From a virus: a stretch of DNA of 53,223 nucleotides. The notes under the pieces are model-generated. The model was not told the origin of the DNA. It searched no databases and saw only the letters and a list, made by a program, of their open reading frames with translations. Below are positions 95 through 41,352 of the stretch, one piece after another. The DNA lies in the IMG/VR virus record IMGVR_UViG_3300048550_000310, positions 1-53,223 of that record, one strand, 5' to 3'. Both the position numbers and the translations under genes were made by a program. Numbering within the stretch: position 1 is the stretch's first letter; each line of letters starts with the position of its first letter.

Positions 95-994
95 TCAATT
101 AGGTTTTATGTTTCTGATATGCTTTAATCTTTTATCATAAAACAATTCACCCGCTTCAAAGGGAGAAACTCTTTCGATTTTAATCTGTCTAATAAAACGA
201 GGATTAAATAACATTCTAAATTTTACCATCAAATCATTAGGAGAAGATCCATATATGATAGTAGTCCCCATCTCAGGTACAGTTACTTTATATTGATACA
301 AACGGGAGGGTCTATCGCAAGGGGCAGCTGCCGATTCTTTCATTGATGAAAGTTGACTCTTTTTCGCCCGTTTTTTCTTAGCATTGTTCATAACAGATGA
401 TGCAGTATCAATAGGTTTATCTGGGAGAGAAATTCCTTTGCTATCAAATCCAGGACGATCTGCCTGCATAACATTCTTTTTGGGGGTTGTAGGTGTTGTT
501 GATGAAGGTAATTTAGATTTAGGTGCATCAAATTTAGGTAAATTTCCAATTGTACTTTGTCCCATAGAGGATGTACTACCAGCCATACTACCACTCATGC
601 GGGCAGGAAACCCTGACCCTGTAGGAGTAGATGGTTTTTGTGCGGGTTGTTGTTTAGGTTTAGAACCCATTACACCTTTAACTGCATTACCAACTCCTTT
701 CAAAATACCACCAAGAAACTCATTGATCTGCTCTTCGCTTAAATCATAACCTTGCTCTCTGAGTTTATTAATTCTCTCCAATTGTTTTTCTAAAATAACA
801 TCATCTAATTTTTCCTGGTAACTACGATGGTCTTCTGCCTTCAATGTATTACCAGGCATCACAAGTTTCTTATCCTTTTTACTCTTAACCTTCCTCCGAA
901 ATTTCATGACAGGATCATATCCAGCATTAGGTCCAGTCGCATCTGCGCTGGCACTAAAACCTCCATTTCCAACTGCCATCATTTCTTCTTGCAT
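95..994 (-). CDS. Basic structural-type protein with folded C-terminal domain
   Basis: 299 aa. Residues 31-45 are a lysine/arginine cluster; 60-100 is a predicted helical segment with LSEEQINEFLGG, a motif that recurs in the 740-aa protein at 4783-7005. Residues 110-225 are low-complexity Pro/Ser/Thr/Lys, with MQADRPGF (176-183), nearly repeated as MQAGRPGF in the 841-aa protein at 2254-4779. Residues 230-295 look globular (YKVTVPEMGTTIIYG...). The start is supported by GGAG 8 nt upstream and a TAATG junction with the preceding gene. Shared motifs place it in a family of cyanophage virion or internal proteins; its function is unknown. Confidence 0.75.
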   Translation of the reverse strand: MQEEMMAVGNGGFSASADATGPNAGYDPVMKFRRKVKSKKDKKLVMPGNTLKAEDHRSYQEKLDDVILEKQLERINKLREQGYDLSEEQINEFLGGILKGVGNAVKGVMGSKPKQQPAQKPSTPTGSGFPARMSGSMAGSTSSMGQSTIGNLPKFDAPKSKLPSSTTPTTPKKNVMQADRPGFDSKGISLPDKPIDTASSVMNNAKKKRAKKSQLSSMKESAAAPCDRPSRLYQYKVTVPEMGTTIIYGSSPNDLMVKFRMLFNPRFIRQIKIERVSPFEAGELFYDKRLKHIRNIKPN

Positions 995-2253: not shown

Positions 2254-4779
2254 TCAGTCGAAACGAGATGTGTGTTTCGCCATAGCATCGTCATCTTTCT
2301 TTTGCTTCTTAGTCTTACCATGCTTGAGAAGACGCTCGGTGTACTTGTTAACTCTTCTGTTATGAGTTTCAAGTTCACTTTCCTTTTCACCTCTCTTCTT
2401 CTTACTAGTGCGCTTGGCACCAGGGAAGTTTTTCTGGTGCTCTCTTGCTTCAACTGATTTGTTGATGTCAAGTTTCTTACCAGTCTTCTTTTCATAATCA
2501 TCAAGAACGCCTTGACGCTTCTTGACTCTTTCTAAAGACTTCTTAGCATCTTCCCCTCTATCTTCACTCAAGGCATTAATTACACCAAAAGATCTTAATC
2601 TACTAGATTCATTGAATTTACTCCAATCAATCGAAGATGATCCCGGTTTCTTTCCAGTAGGTACTTTCTTTATCGGTTTTGGTCCACCCGAACTTGGAGA
2701 AGATGAAGGACTAGGCGGTTTGTTTACACTTGGTTTTGGTGCACCCGAATTATTAAATCCAGGACGACCTGCCTGCATCGGTTTTGGTTTAGGACCAGAA
2801 GTAGTAGGTTTATTATTTGCAATAGAAACATTGTTTGCTTTCATGGCAGCTTTGTAAAAACCGCCTTTGCCCTTGCCACCACCAAAGATGGGGCTCTTAT
2901 ACATCATCTTCTGCGTGAAAGCTGACATTGGTCTATATGCGGATGGACCAGTTCCATATTGACCAGGACGACCGCGAGGCATTTGGGGAATAGGTACAAA
3001 TCCTTGCTCATCATCATTTTTGTCAACTTGGAATCGGTTTCCTACAACTTTACCACCACCCATGCTTCCTAGAGGAGACTTGAATGCACCTGGATTAGCC
3101 TTGAATGCAGACTTAAAATCCTTTTTGCTATCGTAAGTGCTACCTTTCTTTGCTTCAATAGAACCGGGCAGTGCTTCATCAATTTGATCACCTTCTGGTT
3201 CATAACCAGCAGTCTCAAGAGACTTCTTACCTTTTGCCAAAGGAAGTTGAGGACCAGTCCTCTTCATAAAAGCATCTTTTTCATTGGGATTTGTAGTACC
3301 TTTACCCTTGTCATAGATCTTTTTGCCTTTCATGGCACCTCTATGACCAGGACCGATATCAAAACTCGCTTCAGTCAAGTCGGTTTCAGTTTCGTAGCCT
3401 TCTTGATAGCCTTCTTCTGAAACTTCTTCTTGACTGACATACGCATAGCCCTCCGTAGATACTGTTTTTTCGTCACCTAAATCATCTTTGCGGCGTTTTT
3501 GCTGACACTTCATACAATCACAGTCTTCACCATGATTCTTTTTTACATCACCACCCTTAGAATAGGAACCGCAACCCCCTTCTAAGAGATCATCTTTCTT
3601 AGGATTTAATTTAATTTTGGTTTTTTTTTCAACCAAATAGTCAGCAAATCCTAAGAAAGATTCTTTCTTAGTTTTCTTCTTGACTTCACCGCCTTTTGAT
3701 TTACCTTGATAAGGTTCTACCTTAATTGGTGTTGGTGTTTTGACTTCGGGTGCCTTCGCCCTAATCGGAGGATTAGATGGCATTCCTTTACCGGATGTGC
3801 CAGATCCAAATGTACCGTCTCTCCCAGAACCAGTGTTAGCAGGTACTACTGCTGGCGGAGTCTTTGGTGTGTTAACGCTCTTAATCGCTTTGTCTACAGA
3901 TGCCTGCCTTTCGGTTTGCTTCTTATTAATCTTGTCGGCGTTAGGAGACTGTGCAATAGAAGCAGCCTTAGCATCCTGTCTAGCTTTTTCATTTCCTGCA
4001 TTACGGCTCTTACGATCCTTAATGTACTTCTGCATCAAAGGATTGGTAGACTTCGATGTACCTCTAGTGGCATCACGCTTTGCTTTTGCTGCAGCAAGTT
4101 TTGGATTTGCCTTTTTCCATGCTGCCATACCAGCAGACTCAGCATCTTTTGTTGCTTTCTTCTTGGCATCACCTGTTGCTGCATTAGCAGCAGCTCTCTT
4201 CGTAACATACTCAGCGTTCCTAGTATCATTCTTAGCAGAAGGTTTCTTAGGTTTGGGTGAAGAAGGAGGATTGTCTCTGGTTTGTTTTGCTAGTCTGCTT
4301 TTGTTTGCAGCATTTTTTGCTCTTTCTTGATCAGCTGCAGCATCAGCGGCAGTATAGTTAGAACTATCCTTTGTATCTGCTTTTGTTTTTGTTTTTGTTT
4401 TTGGATCTTTACTACCACCAGAACCATACTGATTAGTTCCAAAGAACTCAGCAGGATTTTTGCTTCTATCTTTTTGATTCCTTGCAGTAATTTCGTCGTC
4501 CTTATCGGTTCTTTTTGGCGGTGCCCTACGAGCCTTTTCTGGTCTTGTTTCACCGTCTACTGCCTGTCCTTTCCTATTAAAAGATGTAGTATGCCCAAAT
4601 CCTGTTTGTGGAGTTCTATCACCAGATCTTACAGCCGGTTCATTGGACCTACTGGGTTCAGGAACTACAGTACGAATACCTTTTTTAACAATATCACCCA
4701 GTCCAAGAACACCTCGCTGCAGCAAATTTAGGTCCTTTTTTTTCTCGTGTAAGTCGGAAAAGTTTTTAAATGATTTCAT
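2254..4779 (-). CDS. Large basic, disordered virion-type protein
   Basis: 841 aa, extremely rich in Lys, Pro, Ser, Ala and Gly with almost no hydrophobic core. The N terminus MKSFKNF resembles that of the nucleotidyltransferase at 7007-8158. A cysteine cluster (Cys403, then CDCMKC at 420-425) may bind metal. Three matches to the T4 prohead protease site [LI]xE|[AG] occur: LLE|G (398-401), LTE|A (468-471) and IDE|A (533-536), the last inside YEPEGDQIDEA. GGAGG precedes the ATG at good spacing. Length, charge and neighbours suggest a virion or internal head protein that binds DNA; this is inference. The C-terminal 130 residues are lysine-rich helix. Confidence 0.75.
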   Translation of the reverse strand: MKSFKNFSDLHEKKKDLNLLQRGVLGLGDIVKKGIRTVVPEPSRSNEPAVRSGDRTPQTGFGHTTSFNRKGQAVDGETRPEKARRAPPKRTDKDDEITARNQKDRSKNPAEFFGTNQYGSGGSKDPKTKTKTKADTKDSSNYTAADAAADQERAKNAANKSRLAKQTRDNPPSSPKPKKPSAKNDTRNAEYVTKRAAANAATGDAKKKATKDAESAGMAAWKKANPKLAAAKAKRDATRGTSKSTNPLMQKYIKDRKSRNAGNEKARQDAKAASIAQSPNADKINKKQTERQASVDKAIKSVNTPKTPPAVVPANTGSGRDGTFGSGTSGKGMPSNPPIRAKAPEVKTPTPIKVEPYQGKSKGGEVKKKTKKESFLGFADYLVEKKTKIKLNPKKDDLLEGGCGSYSKGGDVKKNHGEDCDCMKCQQKRRKDDLGDEKTVSTEGYAYVSQEEVSEEGYQEGYETETDLTEASFDIGPGHRGAMKGKKIYDKGKGTTNPNEKDAFMKRTGPQLPLAKGKKSLETAGYEPEGDQIDEALPGSIEAKKGSTYDSKKDFKSAFKANPGAFKSPLGSMGGGKVVGNRFQVDKNDDEQGFVPIPQMPRGRPGQYGTGPSAYRPMSAFTQKMMYKSPIFGGGKGKGGFYKAAMKANNVSIANNKPTTSGPKPKPMQAGRPGFNNSGAPKPSVNKPPSPSSSPSSGGPKPIKKVPTGKKPGSSSIDWSKFNESSRLRSFGVINALSEDRGEDAKKSLERVKKRQGVLDDYEKKTGKKLDINKSVEAREHQKNFPGAKRTSKKKRGEKESELETHNRRVNKYTERLLKHGKTKKQKKDDDAMAKHTSRFD

Positions 4780-4782
4780 TGT

Positions 4783-7005
4783 TCAACCTCCGTAATTGTC
4801 GCGTGCTTTTTCATCACCCATTTTAGAGAAACGTTCTCTCTCTTTTTGTCTAGCAATAGCACTCACAATCTTGGCAGACTTTTTGCGTGCCTTTTCTTTC
4901 TCATCAGGATCATCAGCAGAAAGAGACTTTCTTGCTAAGTTACCCGCTCTACGATACATTGAATTCTCTTTCTTTTTATCGATTTCTTTGTAACCTTCTT
5001 CGATTACATGTTCGATTTCTTGGATAGAGAAAAGACCAGATTCATACAGATGTGCAATCTGTTCATAATCTTCACCTAAGCGATTTGCAAGTTTATCACT
5101 GCCGCTGGATACTGCACGAGACAGTTTACCAACACCTTTTTTCAGAGCACCCTTAAGTACACCACCAACTCTCTGAATGAAAGTAGGTTTCTCCCCTTTA
5201 CTCTTACCACCTGATTTACCGGAACCGGATTCACCTCTAGCATCACCTCTAATACTAGAGAGGATGTCATCTAACTTACCACCTGTTTTGTCACCATCAT
5301 CATCAGATTTTTTCTTTTTACCATCACCACGCTCCATAGCAGCCTTCTTAGACTTCTTACGTTGTGCTTGGAACTCACCAACACCATGACCAATAGCACG
5401 ACCGCCAGCACCAATTACTGCTTTGGCACCTGCCTTAAGACGCTCACCTGCTTTTGCAGCAGCGGACTTAAGACGATCCATAGCGGAAGGTTTCTTTTTA
5501 TCATCATCCTTCTCCTCTTCCTCCATGAGGATGCCACAGATTTCAAGTTCCTCACAGATTTCAAAAAGATCCTGATCATCTTCTGCCATTTCAAGAATAG
5601 CATCCTCAAAGAATGCTACGAGTTCTTCGTCAGACACATCATCAAAATTACACCCCTCAATGAAGAGTTCCTCTTCTTCAGAGAATGCAAGCGATTCCTT
5701 TCTAGCCTTCACCATATTTCGAGGAATATTTTCCCTGGTTCTTTCTCTTGCACTATCAAAGGTACTCTTTACATTTGATACTTTTTTCTTTAAGTATGCA
5801 GGTCCCTTTGTTATTGCTCTTTCAGTACCACCAACAATATTTCCAGCAAGTCTTGCAGCCTTATCAGCAAATTCCCCTACTGGTCCTTCAAAGATATCGT
5901 CAAGTTCATCATGAATAACTTCTTCTTTATGTGCTTTCTTTTTCTCACCACCTTTGGAGAATCCGAGAAGTCCCTTCGTGGTAGGTTTCTTGCCCATTGC
6001 CTGACCAGCAAGACCGCCGATGCCAGTGCTGGCACCCTTCATGAATCCGCCTTTCTTACCCATGTTCATGAGTCCGCCGACGAGACCACCAAGAAGTTCA
6101 TTCAGTTGCTCCTCACTCAGTTGAAGAAGATCGTTAACGAGTGCTTCCTTGAGCATATCACCTTCCGGTTCATAAACAGCATCCCTTGCTCTGCCACCAG
6201 GAGTCATCTCATCAAGCATATTTGCTACCATATCAACATGGACATTCTCTTTCTTTACAGGACCACCTTTAGAGCGACCCATCAATTTATCCATCTGCAT
6301 TTTACGATCACCCAGAGCGCCGCCAACTCTGTGAACCATGCCACTACCAGTCTTATTACCAACAGGACCCTTTGTTTGTGTCTTAGCAAGAGGGTTCTTA
6401 ATATCTAAATTGGGATGACCAATATAACCATCACCTTTCCTACCGCCAATAAATTCAAGAACAACATCAAGTTGCTCCTCGTGATTTGCCGATAATAGAG
6501 AATCAACAAATTCTTCTACTTCCTCTTTTTTAAGTCTGCTCCAACCAAATCCCTTAGGAGATCCCTTTAGTTTGGACCCGCCAGTTTGACCGCCAGATTG
6601 ACCGCCAGCAGGACCGCCTGATCCTGAACCGCCAGCAGAACCCTTTGCACCCATAGTAGCAGTAGTTTTATTCAAACCCCTACCAGTTTGAACACCATGA
6701 ACATTCTCACCGGGTTGACGACGTTCACCTTTAGTAGTGTATTTGGTGTTACGGTTCCATGGAAGCGCATCAGTTACATCGGCAGCCATTTTAGCCAACC
6801 CTTCTTCTACCGCTGCCACCTCCTCACTACGAGTCTTGATGGCTTTACCACGAACCTTACGGCGATTCAAAAGATACTTATCGGACTTATCATGATCTCC
6901 ATCATTATCAATATCCTTATCTTCTTGTCCAACAGGATCTAGTTTTTTGCCTTCATACACTTGCCTGAGTGCATCAGACATGTCAATTGGTTTAGGATCG
7001 TACAT
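4783..7005 (-). CDS. Large structural-type protein with EF-hand-like loop
   Basis: 740 aa. Residues 29-44 (DKDIDNDGDHDKSDKY) form a DxDxDG calcium-loop motif of the EF-hand/dockerin type. Residues 115-145 are Gly/Ser-rich, 160-190 an acidic helix, and 278-312 contain YEPEGDMLKEALV followed by LSEEQLNELLGG, both shared with neighbouring structural-type genes. Acidic and basic blocks alternate after residue 430. Sites matching the prohead-protease consensus include LKE|A (285-288) and IFE|G (371-374). It is separated by only a few nt from the genes on both sides, forming an operon with the 841-aa protein. Family function is unknown; a virion component is the best guess. Confidence 0.75.
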   Translation of the reverse strand: MYDPKPIDMSDALRQVYEGKKLDPVGQEDKDIDNDGDHDKSDKYLLNRRKVRGKAIKTRSEEVAAVEEGLAKMAADVTDALPWNRNTKYTTKGERRQPGENVHGVQTGRGLNKTTATMGAKGSAGGSGSGGPAGGQSGGQTGGSKLKGSPKGFGWSRLKKEEVEEFVDSLLSANHEEQLDVVLEFIGGRKGDGYIGHPNLDIKNPLAKTQTKGPVGNKTGSGMVHRVGGALGDRKMQMDKLMGRSKGGPVKKENVHVDMVANMLDEMTPGGRARDAVYEPEGDMLKEALVNDLLQLSEEQLNELLGGLVGGLMNMGKKGGFMKGASTGIGGLAGQAMGKKPTTKGLLGFSKGGEKKKAHKEEVIHDELDDIFEGPVGEFADKAARLAGNIVGGTERAITKGPAYLKKKVSNVKSTFDSARERTRENIPRNMVKARKESLAFSEEEELFIEGCNFDDVSDEELVAFFEDAILEMAEDDQDLFEICEELEICGILMEEEEKDDDKKKPSAMDRLKSAAAKAGERLKAGAKAVIGAGGRAIGHGVGEFQAQRKKSKKAAMERGDGKKKKSDDDGDKTGGKLDDILSSIRGDARGESGSGKSGGKSKGEKPTFIQRVGGVLKGALKKGVGKLSRAVSSGSDKLANRLGEDYEQIAHLYESGLFSIQEIEHVIEEGYKEIDKKKENSMYRRAGNLARKSLSADDPDEKEKARKKSAKIVSAIARQKERERFSKMGDEKARDNYGG

Positions 7006-7006
7006 T

Positions 7007-8158
7007 TTACTCAGCGGTCTTATCCTTTTTATTTATCTTCTTTCTACCTTCACCTGGTGTCAATTTTATCATATAATCTCTAAGTTCAGATGTACCAACC
7101 TCACCTGCAGGTGTCCAATTAAAATATTTAAGATCATTAATCTCATGAAGATCCTTTAACCATGATCTAAAAATATTATCATTCTCATCAACATAGATGA
7201 CATAATTACTACCACGACTAACAACTTTTCCAATAACTCCAGTGTTTACATTCTCAACTATCGCACCAATATTAAATAAGACATCATCAAAATATGCTTC
7301 CCTTAAACCCTGAGGATCTAACTTAGGAGCGATCTCATGTAAGTCATATGAAACTTCTGCAAAATCACTAAACTCCTCAACCTGCATAGAACCCCTAAGA
7401 GTATTATAAAGTTCTTGCTTATCTTTTCTACTTAATCCTTCAGGCATACCAGCAACAAAGGTATCATAATCATCTTCCGCTGCTGCTTGTCTAAGTTTAG
7501 ATGCAGACATACCTTCAACACCTTCAGAATCTGGGTCTCTATTGCCTGCAGATACTACATTAATTTTTTCAAAATTATACAGTTTGCCGTTGTACTTGTT
7601 TGCTAACGAGTTAAACTCACTAACCCTGTCACCTCCCACAACCAAAGTAACGCCGCTATACCCCTCACTATCGAGAGCGGTGAGAACATCAAAAATACTA
7701 CGCATATTATCATTCGCGATAATTGCATTAGAGTGATCGGGATATGCCTTCCGCATAAATTTAATTTTAGTACCCGGATCGAGAGGATTCTTTTTGGGGT
7801 CCTGCGATCTACTGGGATATATTCTATACTCTCCATTCTTTGCCTCTCGGGCGACTCTTTTTATTAGAGATTCATGTCCGATAGTAGGGGGATTAAATCT
7901 TCCAAAAGTAATAGCAATCGTACCTTGATCGACCGCACCCGAGCCATCTCCAGTTTCTTCTGCTCCATTCTGTTGATCAGCAACTGCTTGGGTACTAGGA
8001 TCTAATTGTACAAGTTTTCCGTCCTGAGACATATGAGTAACTTCGCCACGTTCGTTGGCGTATCTACCATACCCTACATGTGTCAGTCTTAATTTTTCTG
8101 CGTCCTGTGATGCGCGAGATCTTGCCGCTTCAGTTAGGAAAGCACTAAAACTTTTCAT
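7007..8158 (-). CDS. Cytidylyltransferase-fold enzyme with capsid-targeting-like leader
   Basis: 383 aa. Residues 86-95 are GRFNPPTIGH, the nucleotide-binding TxGxH-type motif of the NMNAT/FMN/pantetheine-phosphate adenylyltransferase superfamily; GGDRVSEF (175-182) and GMSASKLR (216-223, equivalent to the ISSTxxR motif) complete the active site. The enzyme should transfer a nucleotidyl group to a phosphate-bearing substrate; the substrate is unknown. The C-terminal 110 residues contain a small beta-rich domain (GAIVENVNTGVIGKVVSRG). The N terminus MKSFSAFLTEA has the length, MKxF/Y..F pattern and E10-A11 cleavage site of T4 internal-protein leaders. Its stop lies 2 nt before the next gene's ATG. 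Confidence 0.85.
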   Translation of the reverse strand: MKSFSAFLTEAARSRASQDAEKLRLTHVGYGRYANERGEVTHMSQDGKLVQLDPSTQAVADQQNGAEETGDGSGAVDQGTIAITFGRFNPPTIGHESLIKRVAREAKNGEYRIYPSRSQDPKKNPLDPGTKIKFMRKAYPDHSNAIIANDNMRSIFDVLTALDSEGYSGVTLVVGGDRVSEFNSLANKYNGKLYNFEKINVVSAGNRDPDSEGVEGMSASKLRQAAAEDDYDTFVAGMPEGLSRKDKQELYNTLRGSMQVEEFSDFAEVSYDLHEIAPKLDPQGLREAYFDDVLFNIGAIVENVNTGVIGKVVSRGSNYVIYVDENDNIFRSWLKDLHEINDLKYFNWTPAGEVGTSELRDYMIKLTPGEGRKKINKKDKTAE

Positions 8159-8159
8159 T

Positions 8160-9068
8160 CTACCAATTTTTTTTAAGATTAAAGTTTGCTTTACTAAAAG
8201 TCAGTCGATCTACAATTTTATATGGATTGTTCGAGATTATTACAAAGCCTTCGTGTGAAGATGGTTTACCATCAATGAAACATTCAACATTCCCATTTGT
8301 GACAATCGCATCCAGTAGACGCTGTTTCAGTTGGAAGATTTTATGCCACACCATAAGGGTCTGAACATTAACCTCTTGTTTATATTTAGCATCCATAGCA
8401 GCGTACATAACTCCGGCACTCGGAATGCTGCCAGCGCGAATAAATTTATTGACAAAGGTCCTCAAATACAATCTAGTGTGCTTGTCTTTAGATACCTTAC
8501 ACTGAGGAATCAATGTAAGAATCTCAGCAATCAATTTGGGTGCAAACCATTTACTAACACGAGCATCAGTAGTATCGATGAACTCGGTGCCTAGTGCAGA
8601 CGAAAGTTTAACACCAATATGTGCCTCAGCATTAGGAGATACCTCAGTGTACCTGGTGTGAGGTGCTACAATAATATCCCTAGTAACAGGAGAATCAAAC
8701 CGATAACTAATAGTGTTGGGAGTATATGTCCTGCCGCCACCAACACCAATAAAGTCAGCTTGAACAATATCATTAATACGGGGAAGATTATGAAGACACA
8801 AACGAAGGATATCAGCGACCCTACCAGTATGGTTTTGATCGATATCTTCTTGGGTATAATTAATTTTGACTTTAATTTTGTTAAAGACTGACTTTGTTCC
8901 CACAAAAAACTTGCCATTTTCAGGATTAGTACCAAAAACAATTGCGGGAGCACCGTCCCATTTGACACTGACTTTACTACAGAGAACTGCCTGCCGGACA
9001 GCATCAAGTGCCACACGACGACCGTCGAAGATAGAATCCTCTAGGTGTTCAAGGTGTTTGTTGGGCAT
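8160..9068 (-). CDS. Ligase-fold nucleotidyltransferase-like protein (DUF6267-like)
   Basis: 302 aa from the ATG at 9066-9068. I chose this start over an upstream in-frame one at 9119 because GAGGGAC lies directly before it and a TATAAT box sits at 9090-9095, between the two. Residues 36-39 (KWDG in SVKWDGAPA) match motif I of covalent nucleotidyltransferases (DNA/RNA ligases, capping enzymes), where the lysine is adenylylated. EGFVI (273-277) fits motif IV and KIVDRLTFSK (284-293) fits motif V position. Many phages carry this family without an assigned function; RNA or DNA end-joining is a reasonable hypothesis. It neighbours the nucleotidyltransferase-fold gene. Confidence 0.75.
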   Translation of the reverse strand: MPNKHLEHLEDSIFDGRRVALDAVRQAVLCSKVSVKWDGAPAIVFGTNPENGKFFVGTKSVFNKIKVKINYTQEDIDQNHTGRVADILRLCLHNLPRINDIVQADFIGVGGGRTYTPNTISYRFDSPVTRDIIVAPHTRYTEVSPNAEAHIGVKLSSALGTEFIDTTDARVSKWFAPKLIAEILTLIPQCKVSKDKHTRLYLRTFVNKFIRAGSIPSAGVMYAAMDAKYKQEVNVQTLMVWHKIFQLKQRLLDAIVTNGNVECFIDGKPSSHEGFVIISNNPYKIVDRLTFSKANFNLKKNW

Positions 9069-9089
9069 GTCCCTCGTGTCTATACCACT

Positions 9090-9098
9090 ATTATAGCA
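9090..9098 (-). promoter_or_regulatory. Extended -10 promoter TGCTATAAT
   Basis: The minus strand reads TGCTATAAT with the -10 hexamer ending 21 nt before the ATG of the ligase-fold gene. The same TGC-extended -10 occurs before the CobS-like gene and, as TGCTAGAAT, before the VWA gene. A TTGACA lies only 3 nt upstream of the -10, too close to act as its -35. Confidence 0.55.
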
Positions 9099-9133
9099 TG
9101 TCAAAGTTGAGTCGCACATAGGGTTGTGACAGT

Positions 9134-37917: not shown

Positions 37918-39297
37918 TCACATGAGGTTTGCAACCTGTACACGACGGTAATACTTGTTGGCGTTGGCGGTAAGAGCGCCAGAACCTTGAGTAAGACCAC
38001 CAGAGAAGGGGTTCGAGACCATGCCGTAGCGAGTCTTGAAGCCGATCTTGGGCTGGAAGGTGTTAGGGTTGATTGCACGAACCTGCTGGAGAGGAACGTA
38101 AGGGCAATAGAACAGACCAGCGTCATAAGGAGAAGTACCCTTATAACCAGCAACGTAGAAGTGCTTATCAGCAACGTTTGCAGAGTAAGGATCAACATAG
38201 ACCTTGATGCGACCGTTGAGCGTACCAACCAGAGTGCTGGAGGTATCATCAACTGCAGTCAGAGAGTTGTTGCCGTTCAGAGCAGGGGTGTAATCAAGAA
38301 CACCAGCCATACCCAGAGCAGAAGCAACGTCTGCAGAGCAGATCAGGATGTTGCCCTTCCCGCGACGAGTTTGCTGACCGATTGCGTTAGCATCTCTTTC
38401 GATCTGGAACAGAAGTCCTTTGAACTTCTCAACAGACCAACGACCATTAGAGTCAACGTCAAGGTCGAAGATACCTGCAGATGCAGTGTTGTTCTGAGCA
38501 CCAGCAACAGCGTTGGTGTAGATGGTACGAACAACTTCTCTGTTGATTTCAGCGAGGATCTCAGTAGAGAGGATGTTGCTCAGTTCCTGCTCAGCATCCA
38601 GACCATGAATTGCCTTCAGGTCTTGTGCGAGTTCGATGCTGTACTCAGCTTTCAGGGCACGAGCCTTTGCTGTTACAGTGACCTTCTCGATCGAGAAGCC
38701 CATTTCACGGAACTCGCTTCCAGAGGTAGCGTCGTCCAGACCCTCAACAGTAGCAGTGCTCATGCCTTGAGCATCGCCAGTCAGTTCGTAGGTGCCAGGA
38801 GAACCGTCGTTCAGAACTGAAGGGTTGTTACCCTCAGCGTCGTTATTAGCAGAGCTAGAAGCACCAGGATCGTAGGAGGTGCCAGCACCACCAGAGAAAC
38901 CAGCGTTGGGCTCATTGAAGAATGCCTCGTCATAACCGCCAGCACCGGGATTGCGCTCGCTACCATAGTTGGTACGCATTGCGAAGATCAGTCCGGTAGG
39001 ACCAGTCATCGGTTGAACGCCAGCGATATCATAGGCGATTAGTTGGGGCATGGAGCGTCTGATCAGCGAGATCAGAACGGGGTCGAAACCAGCAACAGGA
39101 CCACCAGCGGTCGAAGCGCCGGTATAGCCGGTTGTTTGAAGAGTCTCGTTAAGAACTGAAGCTTCTTCAGTTAAGGCTTTTTCTTGGTTTTCCAGAAGTT
39201 GTGCGACTACGCCTTTCTTATAGGAATCACCGATCTCGGGTAGAGCATCGTGTTCCAGAACGGGTGCCCACTTCTCCTGAAGATTTTGGATTGACAT
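37918..39297 (-). CDS. 23: Major capsid protein gp23
   Basis: 459 aa, typical for cyanophage gp23. MSIQNLQEKWAPVLEHDALPEI begins the delta domain; LISLIRRSMPQLIAYDIAGVQPMTGPTGLIFAMR is the signature used in gp23 PCR surveys. The HK97-type core follows, ending KYYRRVQVANLM. In T4 it is cut by the gp21 protease after assembly; I could not place the site with confidence here. Base composition is richer in GC than its neighbours, usual for this highly expressed gene. Confidence 0.96.
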   Translation of the reverse strand: MSIQNLQEKWAPVLEHDALPEIGDSYKKGVVAQLLENQEKALTEEASVLNETLQTTGYTGASTAGGPVAGFDPVLISLIRRSMPQLIAYDIAGVQPMTGPTGLIFAMRTNYGSERNPGAGGYDEAFFNEPNAGFSGGAGTSYDPGASSSANNDAEGNNPSVLNDGSPGTYELTGDAQGMSTATVEGLDDATSGSEFREMGFSIEKVTVTAKARALKAEYSIELAQDLKAIHGLDAEQELSNILSTEILAEINREVVRTIYTNAVAGAQNNTASAGIFDLDVDSNGRWSVEKFKGLLFQIERDANAIGQQTRRGKGNILICSADVASALGMAGVLDYTPALNGNNSLTAVDDTSSTLVGTLNGRIKVYVDPYSANVADKHFYVAGYKGTSPYDAGLFYCPYVPLQQVRAINPNTFQPKIGFKTRYGMVSNPFSGGLTQGSGALTANANKYYRRVQVANLM

Positions 39298-39327: not shown

Positions 39328-40347
39328 TTATTTGGACCAGCGAGCAATCGCATCGACGTATTTACCCATCGTGCCGCTTGCTGTGCTTTCGATAAGGGGT
39401 TCAGAGACTTCTTCAGTGGGGTCAGCAGAATATTCTACATCAGCCTTTCTAGTGAAGTATGATTCCTTAATCGTCTCGACTTTAGTTTTAAAGTCTTCTT
39501 CAGTTTCAAACTCAACACCCTCAGTAAGAGAAGCTAACTTCTCTTTTTGGGTCTCAGCGAGTCCCGTAGCGCATTCGTTCACAATTTCCATTTTAACAAA
39601 TTCACCAAGTTGCTTATTCAAAGCAATATTGGCGTCGATTTGCTCGTTGAGTTTATCTTCCATCTCATCAAGCTCAACTGCCAGACCATCTAGCAAGTTG
39701 AATTTCTCTTCGGGAACACCAACATTGTGCTCCACAAAAAGATCTCTTAGACCGTTGAAGAGTGACTCCGCAATATCAGACTTGATGCCATGTTCAATCT
39801 GGAGAGTATTTTCCTCAATCCAAGATTGTGCGGCGTAAGTCAGGTAGTCATCAACCTTCTCGGCCAATTCTGTTTTGATCTGCTCTACCTCTTCGGTAAG
39901 AGTAGATTCAAATGCTTCTTGCAATGCAGCGACTTCTACATTGACTTTTGAGGTGACTGCAGCTTCAAAAATTGTTACTGCACGCTCTCTGAATTCTTCT
40001 GAGAGGTCTTCACCTGCGACAAGAGCGTCAACATCTTCAGTAAAGTCGTACTCGGTTTCAGTGAGGACTTCTTCTTCATCTTCGTATCCCTCTTGTTTTG
40101 CAGATGCAGCAGATGGTTTCGTGGACAAGGACTTAGAACCTTCATGACCTACCGAACGAGCGGCGGATGAACCAGCGTTCTTAGTACCTTTTGCGCCTTC
40201 CAGCGAATCGGTTGTCACATCGATTACCTTGGCGGCACCACCTTTAGAGGTATCGATCTTTTCACCGGGTTTTGCGTTTTTGGTGACAGCGTTGGAACCT
40301 TCTTCCAACTCCTGTGCCTCAAACTCTCTATCGAGGGATTCAGACAT
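39328..40347 (-). CDS. 22: Prohead core scaffold gp22
   Basis: 339 aa from ATG 40345-40347 (MSESLDREFEAQELEEGSN), with GGAG 8 nt upstream; an in-frame ATG at 40368 is less likely. Highly acidic, coiled-coil protein (EVAALQEAFESTLTEEVEQIK...). Several [LI]xE|[AG] sites (LEE|G, IFE|A, LQE|A, LTE|G) fit its expected destruction by gp21. It forms the inner scaffold on which gp23 assembles. TATAAATA lies at 40385-40392. Confidence 0.88.
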   Translation of the reverse strand: MSESLDREFEAQELEEGSNAVTKNAKPGEKIDTSKGGAAKVIDVTTDSLEGAKGTKNAGSSAARSVGHEGSKSLSTKPSAASAKQEGYEDEEEVLTETEYDFTEDVDALVAGEDLSEEFRERAVTIFEAAVTSKVNVEVAALQEAFESTLTEEVEQIKTELAEKVDDYLTYAAQSWIEENTLQIEHGIKSDIAESLFNGLRDLFVEHNVGVPEEKFNLLDGLAVELDEMEDKLNEQIDANIALNKQLGEFVKMEIVNECATGLAETQKEKLASLTEGVEFETEEDFKTKVETIKESYFTRKADVEYSADPTEEVSEPLIESTASGTMGKYVDAIARWSK

Positions 40348-40384
40348 TTGATATTCTCCGTTATGCATTAGCTTTGTCTATGTT

Positions 40385-40394: not shown

Positions 40395-41039
40395 TCACAA
40401 ACTCTTTAAAAATCTCGCAAACGCGGAAACTTTGCGTTCTTGAAGATTGATAAGAGTTGCTTCATCAATTTCAGTTTTGATTTGAGCAACAGCCGCCTCT
40501 TTGAGGATGCCATTATCCCAAACCCATTCTTTTCCTTCCATAATACCGTCAACAAATGCATCAGGAGCAGAAGGATCAGCAACGATATCAGCTGCAGTAG
40601 CAAGCATGAAATCGTCCGCAACCATGTTGCAGTTTTCCTTTTTAATAATAGAACCCATACCTCTGGATGAAACACCCAGTTTTACACCTTCATCGAGTAG
40701 ATTTTTTGCAATTTTCCCCATAGGTGTATCTAGGAGTTTTGCACGACCGACGAAGTTGGTTCCATCTTCCGACAGAGATGTAATCTTATGTGATACTCTA
40801 TCGAGATTGATAGAGGGACCATCGGGATGACCTAATTCACCAAGAGCACGCCCTTTGCGAATATAGTTCTCATCGTATTTAGCAACTTCGCGTGCCAAAG
40901 TTTTCATTGGGTACATTCTGCCGTTGCGGTTTCTCAATTCCGCTTGCAGAAAGATACCTTCAATGAAGTAATTCTTTTTACCATCTTTCTCTTCACAGAG
41001 AAAATCGATATTTGTAATCTCTTCGGCTATGAGTCTCAT
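40395..41039 (-). CDS. 21: Prohead core protease gp21
   Basis: 214 aa from ATG 41037-41039 (MRLIAEEITNIDFL), preceded by GAGG. U9/S78-type serine protease: catalytic histidine in LGELGHPDGP and serine in GVSSRGMGS. It matures the prohead by cutting scaffold, capsid and internal proteins after Glu at [LI]xE|[AG]. Several candidate substrates lie in this window (gp22, nucleotidyltransferase, basic proteins). Confidence 0.92.
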   Translation of the reverse strand: MRLIAEEITNIDFLCEEKDGKKNYFIEGIFLQAELRNRNGRMYPMKTLAREVAKYDENYIRKGRALGELGHPDGPSINLDRVSHKITSLSEDGTNFVGRAKLLDTPMGKIAKNLLDEGVKLGVSSRGMGSIIKKENCNMVADDFMLATAADIVADPSAPDAFVDGIMEGKEWVWDNGILKEAAVAQIKTEIDEATLINLQERKVSAFARFLKSL

Positions 41040-41043
41040 CGGT

Positions 41044-41352
41044 TTATTCCTCAGGTTCTTGTTCGTCAGTTTCATACTCTGCTTCGGGTGATTCATGAGG
41101 TTGACGTTCGTCAACATCTACATCCGTATACTCAATATCAGTTCCATCTGGAAGTTGATCTTTGAGTTCATCCGCAACACCTTGAGCAGTGTCATCTGGA
41201 TTAAATCCCCAACTCTGAACAAAATCTTGTTTTCCTTGCTGAATAGCATCATAGCTGATTGCCCCAAGAGCATCAGCAACAGAATCAATAGACTTTGCTT
41301 TTTCGTCGTTATAGATTTGATCTACAATTTGTCTGGCGATATCGCTAGGCAT
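41044..41352 (-). CDS. Acidic prohead-core-like protein, 102 aa
   Basis: MPSDIARQIVDQIYNDEKAKSIDSVADALGAISYDAIQQ is a helical head, followed by a long acidic tail (DIEYTDVDVDERQPHESPEAEYETDEQEPEE). It occupies the place of T4 gp67/gp68 between portal and protease and has a similar acidic nature, so a prohead core role is likely. Direct homology to gp67 or gp68 is not visible. Confidence 0.65.
   Translation of the reverse strand: MPSDIARQIVDQIYNDEKAKSIDSVADALGAISYDAIQQGKQDFVQSWGFNPDDTAQGVADELKDQLPDGTDIEYTDVDVDERQPHESPEAEYETDEQEPEE

Follow-up and report, generated by a model that had tools for sequence, protein, structure and literature searches.

The window analysed here, which is the whole stretch of 53,223 bases, is one IMG/VR virus record and covers part of the genome of a Kyanoviridae-type, T4-like cyanophage. 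It encodes gp43, UvsX, gp41, MazG, a DUF6267 protein, a nucleotidyltransferase (NTase), head-protein genes, gp23, gp22, gp21, the portal and the tail tube. The NTase gene, its parts and its neighbours are arranged as follows:

2254..4779, minus strand: 841-aa protein
4783..7005, minus strand: 740-aa protein (phrog_764), next in the operon, rich in L/I-x-E
7007..8158, minus strand: NTase gene, 383 aa; T4-GC190, a cyanophage core gene
7133..7306, minus strand: small C-terminal beta domain of the NTase, residues 285-342
7385..7921, minus strand: catalytic domain, residues 80-258; HxGH-type nucleotidyltransferase fold with GRFNPPTIGH and GMSASKLR
7994..8125, minus strand: second module, residues 12-55; a helix and a small beta-stranded unit with the motif LxLxxxGxGxYxDxxGxVxxxxxxGKL
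8126..8158, minus strand: leader MKSFSAFLTE/A, residues 1-11; predicted capsid-targeting sequence and gp21 propeptide
8160..9119, minus strand: DUF6267 protein (T4-GC71), directly upstream of the NTase

According to the original prediction the enzyme begins MKSFSAFLTEA at 8126-8158, and both the letters and the coordinates are correct; the start is the ATG at 8158, the first start of the open reading frame 7007-8158. The DUF6267 gene stops 1 base before this ATG, and its product has no leader. A programmed frameshift from DUF6267 into the NTase at an A8 run was considered and rejected. Relatives do not keep the A-run, and the NTase is read in the +1 frame with respect to DUF6267; thus we read the pair as plain translational coupling. 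The DUF6267 protein adjoins the NTase in many cyanophages and contains motifs (KWDGAP with KWDG, EGFV, KIVDR) like those of the covalent ligase/nucleotidyltransferase superfamily. A late-promoter-like NATAAATA (motif source: PMC2984593) precedes the NTase by 28-41 bp in S-CREM2, ACG-2014f, S-SCSM1, S-SM2 and three IMG/VR contigs; within 1.5 kb upstream of the NTase in the window there is none. Another late-promoter-like site, GATAAATA at 7030-7037, is listed with the gene for the 740-aa protein.

The NTase is a member of the HxGH nucleotidyltransferases (NMNAT/PPAT superfamily), with a CTP_transf_like match (E=1.3e-6), the invariant NPPTxGH and matching folds. Its closest folds are the phosphopantetheine (PPAT) and the NMN/NaMN adenylyltransferases, which score about equally, and the NCBIfam NMNAT models stay far under their cut-off. 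A PDB sequence search gave no match for the NTase and nothing significant for the DUF6267 protein. The active-site motifs are intact and invariant among the homologues. T4-GC190 matched 559 phage records, predominantly from Synechococcus phages, and is present in all 16 cyanophage genomes of PMC3037559. In places the gene is split or reduced: one IMG/VR contig (L206) has leader, module and the same C-terminal domain without the catalytic domain, and P-HM2 (PHM2_163/164) and Syn1 (161/162) encode the catalytic part and the C-terminal part in two different genes.

In T4, ten residues are enough for the targeting of IPIII, and amber-suppressor substitutions in this protein assigned residues 4 and 7 to targeting and residues 8 and 10 to processing; D10 blocked processing and kept targeting (PMC9026906). 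The protease gp21 cleaves after L/I-X-E, and gp23 is cleaved after residue 65 (PMC9026906). By this map F4 and F7 of the NTase are predicted to serve targeting, and L8 and E10 processing. The leader has the extreme N-terminal location (about 10-19 residues) of a capsid-targeting sequence, and the virus encodes both the gp21 protease and the gp22 core. The original prediction had IPI, IPII and IPIII all begin MKTYQEFIAEA; this holds for IPII and IPIII and fails for IPI, which begins MKTFKEFTSTTTPVSTITEA (read in AF158101). With IPII and IPIII (and IPI) the NTase has in common a ten-residue N-terminal leader, a basic residue 2, an aromatic residue 4 (F in the window), F7, an aliphatic residue 8, E10, A11 and the L/I-X-E site for gp21, which in the window reads FLTE/A. 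It differs in that the cyanophage leader sits on an enzyme and is followed by an extra conserved module, and the mature parts are unrelated: no internal-protein family was found among the Pfam and PHROGs matches of the mature NTase. IPI, IPII and IPIII are small proteins, and none of the three is known to be an enzyme. The 841-aa protein of the window begins MKSFKNFSDLHE/KKK, with F4, F7 and a later L-x-E, and from these letters its start could possibly be an IPI-type leader.

An alignment of homologous leaders had been proposed as a check of the original prediction. In a main set of 24 dereplicated NTase homologues with less than 92% identity (P-SSM2, ACG-2014f, S-CRM01, S-CREM2 and IMG/VR contigs), F4, F7 and E10 are present in all 24, L8 in 22 (otherwise F) and A11 in 23 (otherwise T). 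Positions 3, 6 and 9 vary, and few positions in the protein vary as much as 6 and 9. Thus the family keeps the very residues singled out by the T4 experiments, with 4, 7, 8 and 10 invariant or nearly so and 6 and 9 free. The leader as a whole is more conserved than the catalytic domain (mean entropy 0.69 versus 0.88 bits), and since the codons differ at its conserved positions, conservation acts on the peptide. Among 45 hand-collected leaders, aromatic residues occur at 4 and 7 in 44, E10 in 41, and L or I at 8 together with E10 in 39. One IMG/VR relative that carries the module has the leader MKSFREFITEARGGKA, which is very close to T4 MKTYQEFIAEARVGAG.

Not every homologue has a leader. The NTases of P-HM2 (MKKVYVTFGR), HTVC008M (MKTLKELLRKKVG), Syn1 (MALNCIKCYFTFGR), Klebsiella phage Muenster (MNKCIITFGR) and jumbo-phage relatives start without it. 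Homologues of this kind had been named in advance as evidence against the prediction. They count against it in part, and indicate that packaging is lineage-specific.

Three head genes lie further along the window:

37918..39297, minus strand: gp23 major capsid protein; probable maturation site SVLNE51/T (L-x-E)
39328..40368, minus strand: gp22 scaffold (core), PF25623 (T4_CASP), E=1.6e-78; many L/I-x-E sites
40395..41117, minus strand: gp21 prohead protease, Peptidase_S77, PF03420, E=1.1e-31; start probably MRLIAEE as in S-SM1

The leader site FLTE/A is letter-identical to the site in T4 gp23 (FGSFLTE/AE), and at the corresponding place cyanophage gp23 proteins have the predicted sites GLLTE/APT (S-CREM2) and LFLAE/APT (S-CRM01). 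FLTE/A conforms to the L/I-X-E rule and is the same as in T4 gp23, and the window encodes gp21; on these grounds trimming by this gp21 is likely.

Alternatively, the leader could be an anchor that binds the core and is not necessarily cut, with the enzyme aiding head assembly or staying in the head and not acting as an injected effector. A few relatives have a broken cleavage site and keep F4 and F7, namely MKTFLQFITDS with D10 and MKTFSLFLEST, where E10 is lost; by analogy with IPIII, in which D10 likewise spares targeting, these proteins should be targeted yet uncut. T4 IPIII moreover influences head assembly (PMC9026906). Yet E10 is kept throughout the main set and in 41 of the 45 leaders of the wider set, and invariant active-site motifs would be superfluous if the role were structural alone. 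We therefore regard an uncut anchor as unlikely, though it is the most serious competitor of a leader that both targets and is cut.

In the main group of NTases the order is leader, a module of about 45 residues, a low-complexity linker and the catalytic domain. A second group has neither module nor linker, and the leader is fused directly to the catalytic domain (SFKQYLVEE-VFFTFGRMNPP, HFKEYLKEA-TGHVTFTFGRFNPP). A third group has an extra domain in front. Here we considered a leader at the junction of the fusion and rejected it; a leader-type stretch stands instead at the new N-terminus, clearly in one member (L080, MKFKDYILES) and more weakly in others (e. g. MFKLINEAV). The second module matches phrog_3561 (E=1.4e-9), and phrog_3561 and phrog_455 were its sole matches when it was sought as a known domain. 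A profile of the module found it twice in each of the kinases of S-CREM2 and S-H34, and once in NTases from several phages, in large phrog_3561-related proteins (S-CREM2, S-H34, ACG-2014f) and in a short S-CRM01 protein. In the cases read, it mostly follows a leader or leader-like stretch, and few copies are internal. A gp21 cut would fall before the module, so it would stay on the mature protein; perhaps it binds DNA or the core.

The core pattern [FY]xx[FY][LIVMF]xE occurs 1.6-3.3e-4 times per residue in five phage proteomes; at a single fixed position this corresponds to 0.04-0.08 of 250 proteins. For blind scans of whole gene sets, with uniform gene calling per genome, a scoring profile was built with letters solely from cyanophage NTase leaders. 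Among the 273 called genes of T4 it put IPIII, IPII and IPI at ranks 2, 3 and 6, with gp61.1 at the top. Its top five among the 215 called genes of S-CREM2 were the NTase, the APH-like kinase gp14, the SAM hydrolase/lyase gp6, gp13 and gp136, and all five are in the list of 52 virion proteins (of 219 genes) obtained by mass spectrometry (MS). Both test sets are small, and the S-CREM2 leaders were already known when the profile was designed, although its letters come from other phages; read within these limits, the hypergeometric p is 6e-6 for the three internal proteins of T4, 6e-4 for S-CREM2, and about 0.003 by the same formula for S-CREM2 without the NTase (four of four). Of 2000 column-permuted profiles, two equalled the T4 result, two the S-CREM2 result, and none both. 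False positives of the profile were T4 57B (rank 4) and some H34 proteins. In S-SM1 the NTase, whose family trained the profile, was the sole gene start with a good leader score (34.3, next 4.2). A chance match of the leader to T4 is rejected by the conservation pattern, the profile ranks and the permutation controls.

Leader-bearing NTases have been found in particles of three phages other than the virus of the window. T4-GC190 was detected by MS in S-SM1 particles (Sullivan et al. 2010, PMC3037559), ORF154 in S-CREM2 virions with a low count of 3 peptides (PMC10665884) and ORF91 in S-SCSM1 virions (PMC9602691). Their leaders are MKKFSAFLNEA, MKNFSSFLTEA and MKSFLQFLKEA, respectively. Downstream of the S-CREM2 NTase, gp155, gp156 and gp160 are likewise in the virion list (PMC10665884), and both genes flanking the NTase of S-SCSM1 are annotated as virion protein. 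Further leaders stand on unrelated S-CREM2 virion proteins, i. e. the SAM lyase (MKDFDSFLEE), the kinase (VKRFDAFLTEE) and gp13 (MKDLHSFLTEQ), and the large virion protein labelled Cas9 has RFASFMAEA about 17 residues in, as spotted by eye. Sought in the neighbouring non-virion genes gp7, gp8, gp10 and gp11 of S-CREM2, the leader was absent.

The S-CREM2 authors pointed out that carry-over of abundant proteins could contribute to MS detection. The enzyme might accordingly work in the cell late in infection and merely contaminate the particles, and the low peptide count in S-CREM2 would fit this. Against it stand the independent detection in three phages from different groups and the composition of the S-CREM2 list, which has no replication enzymes while the leader predicts its members. 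We hold carry-over to be very improbable. Least credible, by a small step, is that the N-terminus is an ordinary amphipathic helix for folding, oligomerisation or membrane contact which resembles T4 by convergence: AlphaFold does draw residues 4-22 as one helix, at low confidence (pLDDT <50 for residues 1-13), but the same residues recur on unrelated virion proteins and T4 internal proteins, the segment is separable (with or without an insert of ~65 aa behind it, and at the new N-terminus in fusions), and leaderless homologues keep their catalytic motifs.

We thus consider it highly probable that the first ten residues of the NTase act as capsid-targeting sequence and propeptide of the T4 type, through which the enzyme is packed in the head, likely trimmed by gp21 and most likely delivered at infection. 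The original prediction of a packed, trimmed and injected enzyme stands to different degrees in its parts. Head packaging through a T4-type leader is strongly supported by the match to the IPIII map, the recovery of T4 internal proteins and S-CREM2 virion proteins, and the MS of homologues; trimming is likely, as set out above, and injection with early action is inferred from the analogy with T4. On the T4 model, F4 and F7 would attach the enzyme, soon after its synthesis, to the prohead core during core assembly, and the gp21 of the window would cut after Glu10 (FLTE/A). The cut would free the enzyme within the head, where it would remain with the DNA; it would then enter the cyanobacterium with the DNA and act ahead of any phage gene expression. 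The predicted new N-terminus of the window NTase is AAR, which makes trypsin unsuitable for the semi-tryptic Ala11 peptide that had been suggested as a test; Lys-C is needed and would give AARSRASQDAEK.

A similar route is taken by the ADP-ribosyltransferase Alt of T4, a head-packed enzyme that is cut N-terminally by gp21 and injected (PMC9026906). Alt differs in being another enzyme with a 7-residue propeptide and without demonstrated sequence relation to the NTase. The ejection proteins of SPN3US and phiKZ are also ejected head proteins with propeptides matured by a gp21-like protease; the motif in phiKZ is S/A-X-E, and the likeness concerns propeptide processing.

The tag is common to other enzymes of purified cyanophage particles, which suggests that these phages probably bring ready-made enzymes into the cell with their DNA. 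We lean towards a general cargo code in T4-like cyanophages, in which the leader, often with the ~45-residue module retained on the mature protein, loads varied effector enzymes for delivery at infection and can be read from the genome alone to list pre-loaded effectors. Its members would be the nucleotidyltransferase, the protein kinase, the SAM lyase, a GNAT acetyltransferase and the ~900-aa protein annotated as Cas9. The capsid-targeting sequence and the presence of the enzyme in virions were already known. Of the openly accessible papers searched, one mentions both capsid targeting and cyanophages, and none connects the two. Nor did we find an explanation there of how the T4-GC190 "cytidylyltransferase" or NMNAT-like virion protein, which is the same gene family as the window NTase and is leaderless in some lineages, gets packaged; the papers likewise contain neither the connection between the capsid-targeting sequence and the virion presence of the enzyme, nor its extension to other MS-detected cyanophage enzymes, nor the second module. 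A packaging signal would explain the virion presence of a cyanophage core enzyme, until now without known reason, and would carry the T4 capsid-targeting system to ocean phages that lack the internal proteins of T4 itself. By this, a list of hypothetical proteins could be tested as effectors that are injected into the cell, among them the kinase, the SAM lyase directed against restriction and the nucleotidyltransferase, and absence of the leader predicts lineages without the enzyme in the head.

As to the cargo itself, there is about an even chance that it is an adenylyl- or cytidylyltransferase of the NMNAT/PPAT fold which tops up a nucleotide cofactor, e. g. NAD+, at the start of infection. 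An NAD-related role was suggested for the S-SCSM1 enzyme by its authors (PMC9602691) and is reasonable for the NTase; a connection with defences that deplete NAD+ is speculation.

Several observations concern other tagged or head-related proteins. S-CREM2 gp6 (L087 338-1582), with the leader noted above, is a SAM lyase (PF23780, E=2e-19) present in virions, and would make sense as a pre-loaded anti-restriction enzyme. S-CREM2 gp12 (L087 4205-6814) is annotated and published as a virion Cas9 and groups with phrog_3561; no Pfam or NCBIfam model supports a Cas9 identity, and the label is doubtful. In S-CRM01, 139045-139440 encodes a GNAT-type acetyltransferase with the leader MKTFDEFLTEG and Pfam scores just under the cut-off, a candidate packaged effector. 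T4 gp61.1 (AF158101 18966-19130; 54 aa, "hypothetical"), the top leader score in T4, begins MKTFKEFIKED, and its body NISIGTTSGAVVNKGPEQ resembles the gp23 stretch right behind the gp23 cut, NIAAGQTSGAVTQIGPAVM; from its sequence it is possibly a further T4 internal protein. Finally, the product of 95-994 (minus strand) in the window and S-CREM2 gp160 are relatives of phrog_696 "major head protein" and contain a segment, GGFSASADATGPNAGYDPVM, that is similar to the N-arm of gp23 past its cut site.
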